Of a stretch of 64,000 nt of DNA, positions 14,507 through 26,288 are shown piece after piece. Numbering within the stretch: position 1 is the first letter of the stretch; every line of letters starts with the position of its first letter. The position numbers were made by a program, and so were the translations under genes. The DNA comes from an uncultured Veillonellaceae bacterium. GTDB lineage: Bacteria > Bacillota > Negativicutes > Veillonellales > Negativicoccaceae. The notes beneath the pieces were generated by a model. That model had not been told where the DNA came from. It saw nothing but the letters and a program-made list of their open reading frames with translations, and did no database searches. The stretch lies in contig CAMCNU010000001.1 in assembly GCA_945876385.1 (NCBI GenBank), positions 62,001-126,000 on the forward strand. The letters run 5' to 3'.

Positions 14507-16643
14507 GAAGCAACAAGGCGCGGAGCGGTTTCGCGGGACGGTCGATCGGATTGTATTTGCGGCGCAGGACGGTTCGTTTTGTGTGTTCAAAATGGCGCTA
14601 TCCGATCGCTTGCAGTCGGTGACGGTCGCCGGTCAAGTTGCGCCGCCGTTGGTGGGAGAAGAGGTGGAAGTACTGGGCGGCTGGATGCGTCATCCGCGTT
14701 TCGGGGAGCAGTTGCGTGCGGTGGCCTTGCACCGCCGTCCGCCGACGGAAACAGCCGCCATTGTCCGCTATCTGTCTTCGGGATTGTTCAGCGGTATCGG
14801 CAAAGCGATGGCCGGACGCATCGTGGCGGCGTTCGGTAGCGATACCTTGCGCGTCTTGGAGGAAGAGCCGCAACGGCTTTTGACGGTGTCCGGTATCGGG
14901 GAAAAGACTTTGGCGCGGATTCGCGAATCGGTCACCGCATCGGCGGCCCTGCAGAAACTGACATGGTACTTGGAAGAGGCGGGCGTGGCGGGGAGATACG
15001 CGCCGGCGTTACAAAAACTCTACGGCGAGGATGCCCTGACTGTCTTGCAGGAGGATCCGTATCGAATCAGTCGTGAAGTGGACGGCATCGGATTTACGGT
15101 AGCGGATCGGATTGCGCAGTTTCACGGGACGGACGCGCTGGCGGAAGGGCGCATCGAAGCGGCGGCGGCGTATGTGTTGGCGACGTGCGAACAGGACGGG
15201 GAGTGCTGCGTGCCGTCAACGCGCTTGGTACAGCAGGTAGCGGCGGTGTTGCAGACGGATTCGGAGGAAGTGGGACGCATCCTCGGCGAATTGCTGGAGT
15301 ATGGCGTATTTCCGACAGAAGCACAGGCGGAAACGGTGTACGTCTATGCACCGGATGTATACGAAGCGGAAACGGGGATTCCGTATCACTTGGAGCGCTT
15401 GATACGGACGTGCAAGGAGCCGGTGGCGCTGTCCGACTTGGTCCGTGAGCACATGGCGGCCATCTTGGAGGTTACGCTCGCGCCGGCGCAAACGGACGCG
15501 ATAGAGACGGCACTCAGCCACCCGGTGACGGTGATTACGGGCGGTCCGGGTACCGGCAAGACGACGTTACTGCGCGGCTGTCTGTACTGTCTCGAACAAG
15601 CGGGGCTCAAGACGGTACTCGCGGCGCCGACGGGGCGTGCGGCCAAGCGTCTGGCGGAATCGGCACGGCGTGAGGCATCGACATTGCATAAATTATTGGA
15701 GGCCGGTGCCATCGGCGCGGAAACGGTATTCCAGCGCAACTATACCAAGCCGCTCGGGGCGGATGTCGTCATCGTCGATGAGGCATCGATGCTGGACGTG
15801 CGGCTGATGTATCATTTACTCGAAGCGATGAAAGACGGTGCGCGGTTGTTGTTGGTAGGCGATGTCCACCAATTGCCGCCGGTCGGGCCGGGCAACGTTT
15901 TGCGGGATTTAATCAGCTCGGAAACGGTGGCGGTGGTGCGGTTGACGGAGTTGTTTCGCCAGGCGGAGGGGAGCGAGATTGCGCGCAGCGCGCAACAGAT
16001 TCATCACGGGATCGTGCCGCAGTGGACGGATGATGAGCACGGCGATGTCGTTTTTTATGATTGCCGGGACGAAGAGGCTTTACAGCGGGTCTGTGCATTG
16101 TGCCGCCTGCTGGATTACGGCCATGTCGAGCAGCAGTTTCAGGTACAGGTGCTGTCACCGATGCACAAAGGTGTCTGCGGTGTGACCAATCTGAATCGCG
16201 AGTTGCAGGCGTTGTGGCAGGGCGAAGGTGCCCGCGGGATTACGGTCGGCGACAAGGTCATGCAGCGGCGTAATAATTACGAAAAAGGCGTCTACAACGG
16301 CGATGTCGGCCGTGTGTACGCCTGCACGGACAATGTGATTCGGGTCGATTACCAGGTGCGCAATGTGGTCTACGAAGCGGAAGAAACGGAAGAATTACAG
16401 CTGGCGTACGCGATGACGGTGCATAAGAGTCAGGGCAGTGAGTACGATACGGTGATTATCGTGTTGCAGCCGTCACACTATGTGATGTTGCAGCGCAATT
16501 TGCTCTATACCGCACTGACGCGGGCTAAGAAAAAAGCGTATATCATTTCGACACCGGAGGCGCTCGCGCGCGCCGTGCGGACACAGCGGGTGAATCGACG
16601 GTGCAGTCTGCTGGCGACGCGCTTGCGGGAGGTATTGTCATGA
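14496..16643 (+). CDS. recD2: RecD2-type ATP-dependent 5'-3' DNA helicase
   Basis: Superfamily 1B helicase acting in DNA repair without RecBC. The 715 aa protein has an N-terminal OB-like region (1-80), helix-hairpin-helix repeats (about 90-200), Walker A GGPGTGKTT near residue 349, Walker B VVIVDEASML, motif III GDVHQLPPVG and the C-terminal AYAMTVHKSQGSEYD. This arrangement separates RecD2 from the RecD of RecBCD. The neighbouring comF gene makes a link to uptake of single strands plausible but unproven. Start and stop overlap the genes on both sides. Confidence 0.94.
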   Translation: MMDEKQQGAERFRGTVDRIVFAAQDGSFCVFKMALSDRLQSVTVAGQVAPPLVGEEVEVLGGWMRHPRFGEQLRAVALHRRPPTETAAIVRYLSSGLFSGIGKAMAGRIVAAFGSDTLRVLEEEPQRLLTVSGIGEKTLARIRESVTASAALQKLTWYLEEAGVAGRYAPALQKLYGEDALTVLQEDPYRISREVDGIGFTVADRIAQFHGTDALAEGRIEAAAAYVLATCEQDGECCVPSTRLVQQVAAVLQTDSEEVGRILGELLEYGVFPTEAQAETVYVYAPDVYEAETGIPYHLERLIRTCKEPVALSDLVREHMAAILEVTLAPAQTDAIETALSHPVTVITGGPGTGKTTLLRGCLYCLEQAGLKTVLAAPTGRAAKRLAESARREASTLHKLLEAGAIGAETVFQRNYTKPLGADVVIVDEASMLDVRLMYHLLEAMKDGARLLLVGDVHQLPPVGPGNVLRDLISSETVAVVRLTELFRQAEGSEIARSAQQIHHGIVPQWTDDEHGDVVFYDCRDEEALQRVCALCRLLDYGHVEQQFQVQVLSPMHKGVCGVTNLNRELQALWQGEGARGITVGDKVMQRRNNYEKGVYNGDVGRVYACTDNVIRVDYQVRNVVYEAEETEELQLAYAMTVHKSQGSEYDTVIIVLQPSHYVMLQRNLLYTALTRAKKKAYIISTPEALARAVRTQRVNRRCSLLATRLREVLS

Positions 16644-17284
16644 AGCCGGCGTCGTGGCTGCGCTTTTTGTATCCGCCGCATTGTCCCGGATGTCAGGCCG
16701 CGGTGCGCGCTCACGGCGTGTGGTGTGCGGATTGCTATGCGACGATTTGGCATCCGCGACTGATTCGCGGTTCGCGCAAAGGGTGCTTGGACGGTTGCTA
16801 TGCGCTCGGTGATTACCGCGGTCCGTTACGGCAAGCGTTGATTGATTTAAAATTCTACGGCAAGTTGAGTCAAGCTGCCGCTTTTACCCGCTTGTTGGAG
16901 GAATTTCCGTGGCCGGAGCGCTGGTGCCGTGTCACGACGGTGCTCGGCGTGCCGATTTCCGCACAGCGCAAGAAGGAGCGGGGATTCGATCAAACGGAGG
17001 AAATTTTTCGGGAGTTTTTCCGTCTGCGCGGCATCGGCTGGCGGGAAGGCTTACGCAAGGTGCGGCACACATTGCCGCAATCGGGACTGCAACGCGCGGA
17101 GCGAGCGGCCAATATAAAACACTCCTTCGCTTATGAAGGAGTGTTGTTCAGTCCGTATGATACGGTGTTACTGGTCGATGATATTTATACCACGGGCTGT
17201 ACCATGCGCGAGGCTGCCCGCGTCTTGCACCGCGCTGGTGCGGGACGTATGGTAGGGCTGGTCATCGCGAGCGGTGCCGATTAG
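16640..17284 (+). CDS. comF: ComF-family competence protein (phosphoribosyltransferase-like)
   Basis: Cytoplasmic protein needed for natural transformation in several bacteria. At 214 aa it has an N-terminal zinc ribbon (CPGC ... CADC, residues about 14-35) and a phosphoribosyltransferase fold with the PRPP loop VLLVDDIYTTGCT near residue 175. The ATG at 16640 overlaps the recD2 stop (ATGA). Only the ComFC-like gene is here; no comFA helicase is adjacent. The stop overlaps the stop of the opposite-strand HD-GYP gene by 4 nt, and a hairpin inside its last part looks like that gene's terminator. Confidence 0.9.
   Translation: MKPASWLRFLYPPHCPGCQAAVRAHGVWCADCYATIWHPRLIRGSRKGCLDGCYALGDYRGPLRQALIDLKFYGKLSQAAAFTRLLEEFPWPERWCRVTTVLGVPISAQRKKERGFDQTEEIFREFFRLRGIGWREGLRKVRHTLPQSGLQRAERAANIKHSFAYEGVLFSPYDTVLLVDDIYTTGCTMREAARVLHRAGAGRMVGLVIASGAD
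17112..17148 (-). terminator. Minus-strand terminator embedded in comF
   Basis: An 11-bp perfect stem (17118-17128 with 17135-17145, loop of 6) is followed on the minus strand by TTTTATATT. On the + strand no U tract follows. It would end the HD-GYP transcript about 130 nt past its stop, making RNA antisense to the end of comF. Confidence 0.55.
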
Positions 17285-17886
17285 CGGCCGAGAATTTCCA
17301 CAAAATTTCTGACAATCGTCGGGTCGAACAGCAATCCGGACGCACTGTACAATTCGCTGATGGCTTCCTGCTTGGTTTTGCCGACGTTGCGGTCGGACGG
17401 ATAGAGCAAATGGTCGTAATAATCCGCGACGGCAATGATGCGTGCGCCTTGCGGGATGTTCAACTGCTTGCAACGGCGGGGGAATCCCGTCCCGTCCCAG
17501 CGTTCATGGTGATGTAAAATGCAAGGGATGACTTCCTGACAAGAGGGAATCAGCTCCAGCATCGCCGCGCCCTGCTCGGGATGACGGCGATAGGCGGCGC
17601 GCTCGCGCGTCGTCAGAAACGGCCGTTTTTGCAGTACCAGGTAAGGCACGCTTAATAATCCGATATCGTGCAGGATACCGGCGGCCTGAATCGTATTGAT
17701 TTCCGTATGTGACAGTCCCATGCGGGCCGCAATGGCGCCGGCATAATCCGACACGCGCAGCGAGTGTTCCGCGAGTTGCTTGCTTTTTCGTTGCAACAAA
17801 AAGGAAAACACTTCCACCACATAGGACAGCTCTTTCTTGTTTTCCGCATACATGTCGTTGACATGCATTAAACTTTGTGGGTACAT
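17281..17886 (-). CDS. HD-GYP domain protein (probable cyclic-di-nucleotide phosphodiesterase)
   Basis: 201 aa, soluble, with an HD-GYP domain over nearly its full length. The metal-binding residues are visible: His41, His73-Asp74 in ILHDIGLL, His102, and HHHERWDGTGFP (125-136), where the usual GYP is GTGFP. Proteins of this family hydrolyse c-di-GMP or related dinucleotides; some act on others, so the substrate is uncertain. No sensor or receiver domain is attached. A GAGG-type ribosome binding site precedes the ATG, and a TATAAT lies at 17919-17914 (minus). It is convergent with comF, with a 4-nt overlap of stop codons. Confidence 0.85.
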   Translation of the reverse strand: MYPQSLMHVNDMYAENKKELSYVVEVFSFLLQRKSKQLAEHSLRVSDYAGAIAARMGLSHTEINTIQAAGILHDIGLLSVPYLVLQKRPFLTTRERAAYRRHPEQGAAMLELIPSCQEVIPCILHHHERWDGTGFPRRCKQLNIPQGARIIAVADYYDHLLYPSDRNVGKTKQEAISELYSASGLLFDPTIVRNFVEILGR

Positions 17887-17999: not shown

Positions 18000-18028
18000 T
18001 TGACAGTCTGAAAAAACTTCATTACAAT
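18000..18028 (+). promoter_or_regulatory. Consensus promoter of the 18035-18236 RNA
   Basis: TTGACA (18000-18005), 17 nt spacer, TACAAT (18023-18028). The expected start, about 7 nt downstream, is A18035, which is exactly the first base of the RNA's closing stem. Confidence 0.85.
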
Positions 18029-18034
18029 GGCGAC

Positions 18035-18236
18035 ATCTATCAAACGGGTCTGTGGTTGAAAGTCGAGGCCAGTCGCAGGCAAAACGATCCACGTAAGGAA
18101 ATGAGATTTCTGAGCATGGTGCGGCTTAGGGGTAAGACCTGCCGGGAAAACCGAGAGGGCGAGTAGTGAAGGAAACCGAGCGAAACCTCCAGCAGGCGAG
18201 TGTGGGGGCAAAGACCAGGTCAGCCGTTTGGTAGAT
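18035..18236 (+). ncRNA. Structured noncoding RNA, about 202 nt, possible raiA-type RNA
   Basis: No credible ORF is present, yet the segment has a consensus promoter and its two ends pair: bases 18035-18047 with 18224-18236 form 13 bp with a single G-U. A second long-range pairing is GACCTG (18136-18141) with CAGGTC (18216-18221). The body is rich in GAAA and GGAAA motifs, as in compact tertiary-folded RNAs. Length, closed ends and a nearby comF gene fit raiA RNA, a Firmicute/Actinobacterial RNA of about 205 nt often near comF and raiA genes; I cannot check the consensus, and no raiA gene is here. It lacks hallmark sequences of RNase P RNA, SRP RNA or tmRNA; 6S RNA is less likely because no long central bubble is seen. 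Confidence 0.6.
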
Positions 18237-18241
18237 TCGGC

Positions 18242-18270
18242 TTGACAAAAAAGGCATTTTCAGATACGAT
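18242..18270 (+). promoter_or_regulatory. Promoter of the Cys T-box leader
   Basis: TTGACA (18242-18247), 17 nt spacer, TACGAT (18265-18270), predicted start near 18277. It begins 6 nt after the end of the upstream RNA, with no terminator in between. Confidence 0.85.
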
Positions 18271-18505: not shown

Positions 18506-18525
18506 ATATGGGAAACGGAGTGCGT

Positions 18526-19230
18526 ATGTGGAAACGGTTGCGAAATGATATACGGGTGGTGTTTGCGCGTGACCCGGCGGCGCGAAATGTGTGGGAAGTG
18601 ATTCTTTGCTATCCGGGCCTGCATGCCATCTGGTGGCATCGGTTGTCGCATTGGCTGTATGTGCGACAATGGTTTACAGCCGCACGCTGTGTATCGCACT
18701 GGGCGCGGTTTTGGACAGGGATTGAGATTCATCCCGGCGCGCAGCTCGGCGAGGGGGTATTCATCGATCACGGCGGCGGTGTAGTCATCGGTGAGACGGC
18801 GGTCGTCGGTAATAATGTCACGCTGTACCAGGGGGTCACCTTGGGCGGTACCGGCAAAGAAAAAGGCAAACGCCATCCGACGCTGGAAGACTATGTCGTG
18901 GTCGCGAGCGGTGCCAAAGTGCTCGGCTCGTTTACCGTCGGAGAAGGGGCCAAAATCGGCGCCGGCTCGGTGGTGTTAAAGCCCGTTCCGGCACACAGTA
19001 CGGTGGTCGGCATCCCCGGACAGGTGATTATGCGTAAGGGCTTGCGGGCGATTCAATGGGAGCACGGCGGGGAAGAAGAGGTCAACTTAGATCATGCGGT
19101 ATTGCCCGACCCGACGAAAGAAAAAATTACGGATTTGAAGGAACAGATTGCCCGCTTGGAGCGGCGGTTACAAAAATTGGAGGAAGAGCATGCAGGAAAT
19201 TCAAGTGTACAACACACTGACAAAGCGTAA
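18526..19230 (+). CDS. cysE: Serine O-acetyltransferase
   Basis: Transfers acetyl from acetyl-CoA to serine, the first step of cysteine synthesis. The left-handed beta-helix is obvious from the hexapeptide repeats, e.g. [20 protein letters not shown] and [23 protein letters not shown] at 18526 has ACGGAG 5 nt upstream; an in-frame ATG at 18508 lies inside the T-box terminator tail, so I reject it. 234 aa, with a charged coiled-coil-like end (about 205-230). It overlaps cysS by 41 nt. Expression should rise when tRNA-Cys is uncharged. Confidence 0.96.
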
Positions 19231-25947: not shown

Positions 25948-26288
25948 GGGGGCGCATCGGTTTCGACAGGAGTAGGTGTGCTATCGACAGCGGGTCGGGG
26001 TCTCGGTCACCCCGTAAAACCACCGAAACAAACATAAACGCAAATAACGAATTTGCACTGGCAGCATAAGCCACGCCGCCTTATGTTCTCCCGAGACATA
26101 AGCTCGGCGTCACTCATCGGGATACCTTTACGGAACGTCGGATACCGCTGAAGGGAAACACATCCGAATCGTCTTTGTCGGCTTGTTCATGAGCGAAACA
26201 AAGATTAACACCCGATCATGAACTGCACCCGGAGCGGTCGGTAGGGCAATATTTTTGGACAGGGGTTCGACTCCCCTCGTCTCCACCA
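25948..26288 (+). ncRNA. ssrA: Transfer-messenger RNA (tmRNA)
   Basis: Rescues stalled ribosomes by acting as alanyl-tRNA and as mRNA. The 5' end GGGGGCGC pairs with the 3' end of the acceptor stem, and the T arm GGGGTTCGACTCCCC plus the encoded CCA close the tRNA-like part. The tag frame, GCA at 26040-26042 to TAA at 26067-26069, encodes ANNEFALAA, so the appended tag would be A-ANNEFALAA, ending in the LAA degradation signal. Single-piece form, 341 nt. Confidence 0.97.

Follow-up and report, generated by a model that had tools for sequence, protein, structure and literature searches.

The raiA or ModT RNA (Rfam RF03072) is under study in C. difficile and C. acetobutylicum. The family entry is classed by Rfam as cis-regulatory. 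Its usual neighbours, neither of them strictly defining, are comFC (74%) and the raiA gene, whose adjacency to the RNA is limited to 66% of cases and does not extend to C. difficile (PMC11706538). The raiA RNA of C. difficile, named ModT, is highly abundant and stable and is required for timely growth transitions; a long isoform arises by read-through to a downstream terminator (PMC11706538). Deletion of ModT raises c-di-GMP, which has been linked to a sporulation defect, and ModT can be complemented in trans (PMC11706538).

The window analysed here is a stretch of 64,000 nucleotides from an uncultured Veillonellaceae bacterium, and the segment at 18035-18236 is a full-length member of this family. 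It shares P1, P3, pk-1 and the CCUGC/GCAGG arm with the family and has comFC nearby. Like ModT of C. difficile, it has its own sigma-70 type promoter and lacks an adjoining raiA gene. In contrast to the family, the arm is shorter than that of the model (194 nt vs 209), no terminator follows P1, a second promoter and the T-box of a cysE-cysS unit lie downstream, a divergent HD-GYP gene separates the RNA from comFC, and the host has no GGDEF proteins. The RNA itself is of a known family; what is new here is its gene context and the absence of its proposed partners from the host. The features of the locus are listed in Table 1.

Table 1. Features of the raiA/ModT locus, in window coordinates
Feature	Position	Strand	Basis
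comFC-like gene	16601-17284	+	TIGR00201 E 5e-23, below model cut-off; DZR_2 match
HD-GYP domain gene, divergent from the RNA	17281-17886	-	PF13487, 128.9 bits
Sigma-70 type promoter, -35 TTGACA (18000-18005), -10 TACAAT (18023-18028)	18000-18028	+	11/12 consensus
raiA/ModT RNA gene, predicted transcript core	18035-18236	+	RF03072; ends inferred from promoter and P1 stem
P1 closing stem, 5' strand	18035-18047	+	Minimum-energy fold; covariation
pk-1 first half, AGUCGCA, in P3 loop	18071-18077	+	Covariation; family structure PMC11751092
pk-1 second half, UGCGGCU	18120-18126	+	Covariation
P1 closing stem, 3' strand	18224-18236	+	Minimum-energy fold; covariation
Second promoter, TTGACA-17-TACGAT, before the T-box and outside the RNA	18242-18270	+	10/12; in 4/4 genomes of the window's family
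T-box leader RF00230	18284-18490	+	96.7 bits vs gathering 93
cysE, serine O-acetyltransferase	18508-19230	+	TIGR01172, 250.6 bits

The segment is a raiA/ModT RNA

A scan of the window with Rfam matched RF03072 at 18039-18232; the score of 181.6 bits (E 3e-46) exceeds the gathering score of 101.3, and the covariance model was matched end to end (model positions 1-209). No other Rfam family, 6S RNA included, was found inside 18035-18236, even at E values up to 10. A search of the host genome returned this single copy. An earlier sequence-only reading had entitled the segment an RNA with no known label and had guessed at a raiA-type RNA. The match rules out an unlabelled new RNA and bears out the guess, and the checks which that reading had asked for, with the Rfam model and for covariation in relatives, both came out positive. 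ORFs of 61-98 aa overlap the segment. A coding ORF can be set aside as the source of conservation, which is accounted for by the family match together with structural covariation. The statistical significance of the segment likewise comes from the covariance model and from covariation rather than from fold energy, which is weak evidence here. The energy of the RNA segment is unremarkable (z -1.8, with 9 of 200 shuffles equally good), and the RNA and the T-box folded together gave a z of +0.4.

Covariation backs the family structure, including the pseudoknot

Covariation was assessed in an alignment of 77 distinct raiA RNAs from the class of the host. In the Rfam structure both partners have changed at 23 pairs, more than in shuffled or slid controls, and in the outer P1 helix this holds for 11 of 12 pairs. 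The 13-bp closing stem that the sequence-only reading had drawn between the two ends of the segment is P1, and it is present in the minimum-energy fold. A second structure, written after PMC11751092 with the P3 hairpin, CCAC/GUGG and pk-1, fits better than the Rfam structure: 92.1% of cells are paired compared to 85.2% in shuffles, and its 24 double-change pairs compare with 17.1 in shuffles and lie far above every slid version. The seven pairs of pk-1, which join the P3 loop to the pk-loop, are standard throughout in the window; across the 77 sequences 98% of their cells are paired, with double changes at two pairs. The family structure, including pk-1, is backed by covariation over these relatives. 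P4 was set at CCAC/GUGG by interpreting PMC11751092, and its four pairs are invariant and so silent on covariation. In the P5 arm 54% of cells are paired, in a poorly aligned region where the alignment is unfit to judge P5.

A further long-range helix that had been proposed inside the RNA, 18136-18141 with 18216-18221 (GACCUG/CAGGUC), is pairable on paper. It shows no covariation among the 77 sequences, 43 of which cannot form its second pair, and its strands are taken in the Rfam structure by P1 (CUG/CAG, UGGUU/GACCA) and by CCUGC/GCAGG. We therefore rejected this helix.

The RNA has a conserved promoter and is followed by a probable cysteine T-box unit

The TTGACA-17-TACAAT promoter of the earlier reading was recovered with its 17-nt spacer. 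Since shuffles of the region gave 1.0 +/- 1.0 such sites by chance, a lone site would be weak, and the promoter is believed because it recurs at the same place in relatives. Sites scoring at least 9/12 were found there in 4/4 loci of the window's own family (f1), 5/5 of the sister family (f4), and 23/23, 33/33 and 8/9 of three other families of the class (f3, f18 and f2, respectively).

The second promoter and the T-box had gone unmentioned in the earlier reading. The T-box leader, also a structured RNA, shares the intergenic interval with the raiA RNA and is a separate element outside it. It leads into cysE and the cysS gene that comes next, and its likely ligand, judging by a TGC where the specifier is expected, is tRNA-Cys. 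No terminator was found between the raiA RNA and the T-box in f1. In f2 (9/9 loci) and f3 (23/23), the 60 nt that follow the RNA contain a terminator-like hairpin.

In f4, the T-box of cysS starts 11-40 nt after the raiA RNA (L122, L123, L124, L093 and L147), and four of the five T-boxes fall short of the gathering score, some of them narrowly. A second promoter of at least 9/12 is lacking in four of the five, and the candidate in L122 sits inside its T-box. With mostly neither promoter nor terminator between the two elements, the raiA promoter of f4 appears to drive the RNA and the T-box as one transcript.

We infer from the sequence that the RNA is transcribed in the host and where its 3' end would lie. 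Transcription from the conserved promoter would start near 18035, and the transcript would fold compactly into a long P1, the P3 hairpin, pk-1 and a multi-stem arm. Because the interval up to the T-box contains no terminator, we propose that some transcripts read on to the T-box terminator and that trimming of these back to P1 probably yields the 3' end. A tentative extension covers f1 and f4 together: the raiA RNA may now form the 5' segment of a cysteine T-box transcription unit, whose T-box terminator would give the RNA its 3' end. Each start at the promoter would yield the RNA regardless of read-through into cysS, and the core activity of the RNA in these families would need no c-di-GMP synthesis, no neighbouring raiA gene and none of the zinc-ribbon genes that adjoin it elsewhere in the class. 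We regard this as possible, with the odds somewhat against it. A limited literature search found no paper treating raiA, the T-box and Veillonella together.

Proposed partners of the RNA are missing from the host and from many relatives

The comF gene noted earlier upstream of the RNA is present as a comFC-like gene, but the opposite-strand HD-GYP gene lies between the two. The absence of a raiA gene nearby, also noted earlier, was confirmed: the only PF02482 (raiA) gene of the host is 240 kb from the RNA, beside secA. This is no argument against family membership, since the raiA gene is so often absent from the side of the RNA, as it is in C. difficile. The genes downstream of the raiA RNA differ between families. 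Across most of the remaining families of the class (f5-f35, e.g. L130, L151 and L168), the start codon of a zf_Tbcl-type zinc-ribbon gene (MAFQDKTLKCKDCG...) follows the full-length RNA at a distance of about 35 nt. This gene is a neighbour that we did not find named in the raiA/ModT literature consulted for comparison.

The host genome (99.98% complete) has no GGDEF domain and no zf_Tbcl gene. The raiA RNA is present in 150 of the 201 genomes of the class. GGDEF is lacking from 64 of these 150 and both GGDEF and zf_Tbcl from 43, counts to be read as non-independent, as GGDEF-free genomes belong mainly to the window's order and f18. Conversely, 46 genomes of the class have GGDEF and lack the RNA. 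The zf_Tbcl zinc-ribbon protein was rejected as a required partner, being absent from the host and from 54 of the 150 RNA-bearing genomes. Small genomes like that of the host, which keep the RNA without GGDEF, the zinc-ribbon gene or raiA linkage, narrow the possible core function, and in GGDEF-free hosts the function of the RNA could be studied apart from the c-di-GMP effects seen in clostridia. No member of the large family f14 carries the raiA RNA, while GGDEF, zf_Tbcl and raiA genes are kept there, which looks like a clade-wide loss of the RNA.

The RNA very probably acts in trans

We consider it very probable that the segment is a raiA/ModT RNA gene that is independently transcribed from its own promoter, acts in trans and does not control the downstream gene. 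By analogy with ModT of C. difficile, its product would work as a stable, abundant RNA. No adjacent gene is an obvious cis target, since the raiA gene is remote and a separate promoter precedes the T-box unit in all four f1 genomes. As diguanylate cyclases are missing from the host and from many relatives, the molecular activity would be expected upstream of, or apart from, c-di-GMP. Against a purely trans-acting RNA stand the Rfam label, the missing terminator in f1, the apparent shared transcript in f4 and the position of the RNA shortly before the zinc-ribbon gene in many families; the f1 gap and the f4 transcript leave room for a cis effect.

An alternative is a partnership between the RNA and the divergent HD-GYP protein in the turnover of a nucleotide second messenger, in which the RNA might, for instance, bind the protein as a ligand or regulate it. 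The HD-GYP gene and the RNA are divergently oriented at every locus examined of f1 (4), f3 (23) and f18 (33), the gene is the only one with PF13487 in the host genome, and ModT alters c-di-GMP in C. difficile (PMC11706538). However, in a host without GGDEF proteins there is no c-di-GMP to degrade, and almost all orthologues carry another residue in place of the HDIGK lysine. Moreover, the RNA lies elsewhere in f2 and f4, where the HD-GYP orthologue was still detected beside comFC in 6 of 11 loci, so the adjacency may be an old inherited synteny and not a partnership. This weakens the HD-GYP protein as a dedicated partner, and we hold the alternative to be unlikely. The metal-ligand residues of the protein are kept across 71 aligned homologues. 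As the sole HD-GYP of a GGDEF-free genome, with that lysine substituted across almost all orthologues, it may have a substrate other than c-di-GMP.

It is quite improbable that the raiA RNA is instead a cis-acting, riboswitch-like leader of cysE-cysS in tandem with the T-box. Such a role would agree with the cis-regulatory typing by Rfam, with the lack of a terminator before the T-box in f1 and with the close spacing in f4, mostly without an intervening promoter. Yet the T-box unit of f1 is started independently by the second promoter, a terminator follows the RNA throughout f2 and f3, the downstream gene varies elsewhere, and complementation of ModT works in trans (PMC11706538).

The remaining alternative, that control of the c-di-GMP level is the core function of the RNA, draws on the effect of the ModT deletion in C. 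difficile (PMC11706538) and can be given hardly any weight, since the host and 64 RNA-bearing genomes, albeit mainly of two clades and not 64 independent cases, are without GGDEF and 46 genomes have GGDEF without the RNA. On these counts the c-di-GMP effect of ModT cannot be a common core function, unless these lineages use an unrecognised c-di-GMP enzyme.

Miniature raiA-like RNAs and other observations

Outside the class, weak raiA matches were obtained that include RNAs of about 100 nt (L272-L290; also L248-L250 and L255-L258). These miniature RNAs score below the Rfam gathering score. They keep P1, the P3 hairpin and an apparent pk-1, and a short stem replaces the remainder. The apparent pk-1 partners read GCCGC/GCGGC in one family and GCCGUA/UACGGC in the second; by visual inspection the change is compensatory. 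With a model of the miniature form, built from seven sequences, matches were obtained at E below 1e-19 in 19 of the 26 genomes of a second class in the phylum. In all 18 miniature loci readable by pattern, the distance from GTCTGTGG to the start of a zf_Tbcl-type gene is 138-150 nt; the same kind of gene lies about 35 nt downstream of full-length raiA RNAs in many families of the host's class. One further raiA match, L253:1002-1116 (genome G007), lies upstream of a zinc-ribbon gene and has an internal deletion from P3 to P5; this short form is either real or an assembly error. The window also contains an ordinary tmRNA gene at 25948-26288 (RF00023, 170.9 bits).
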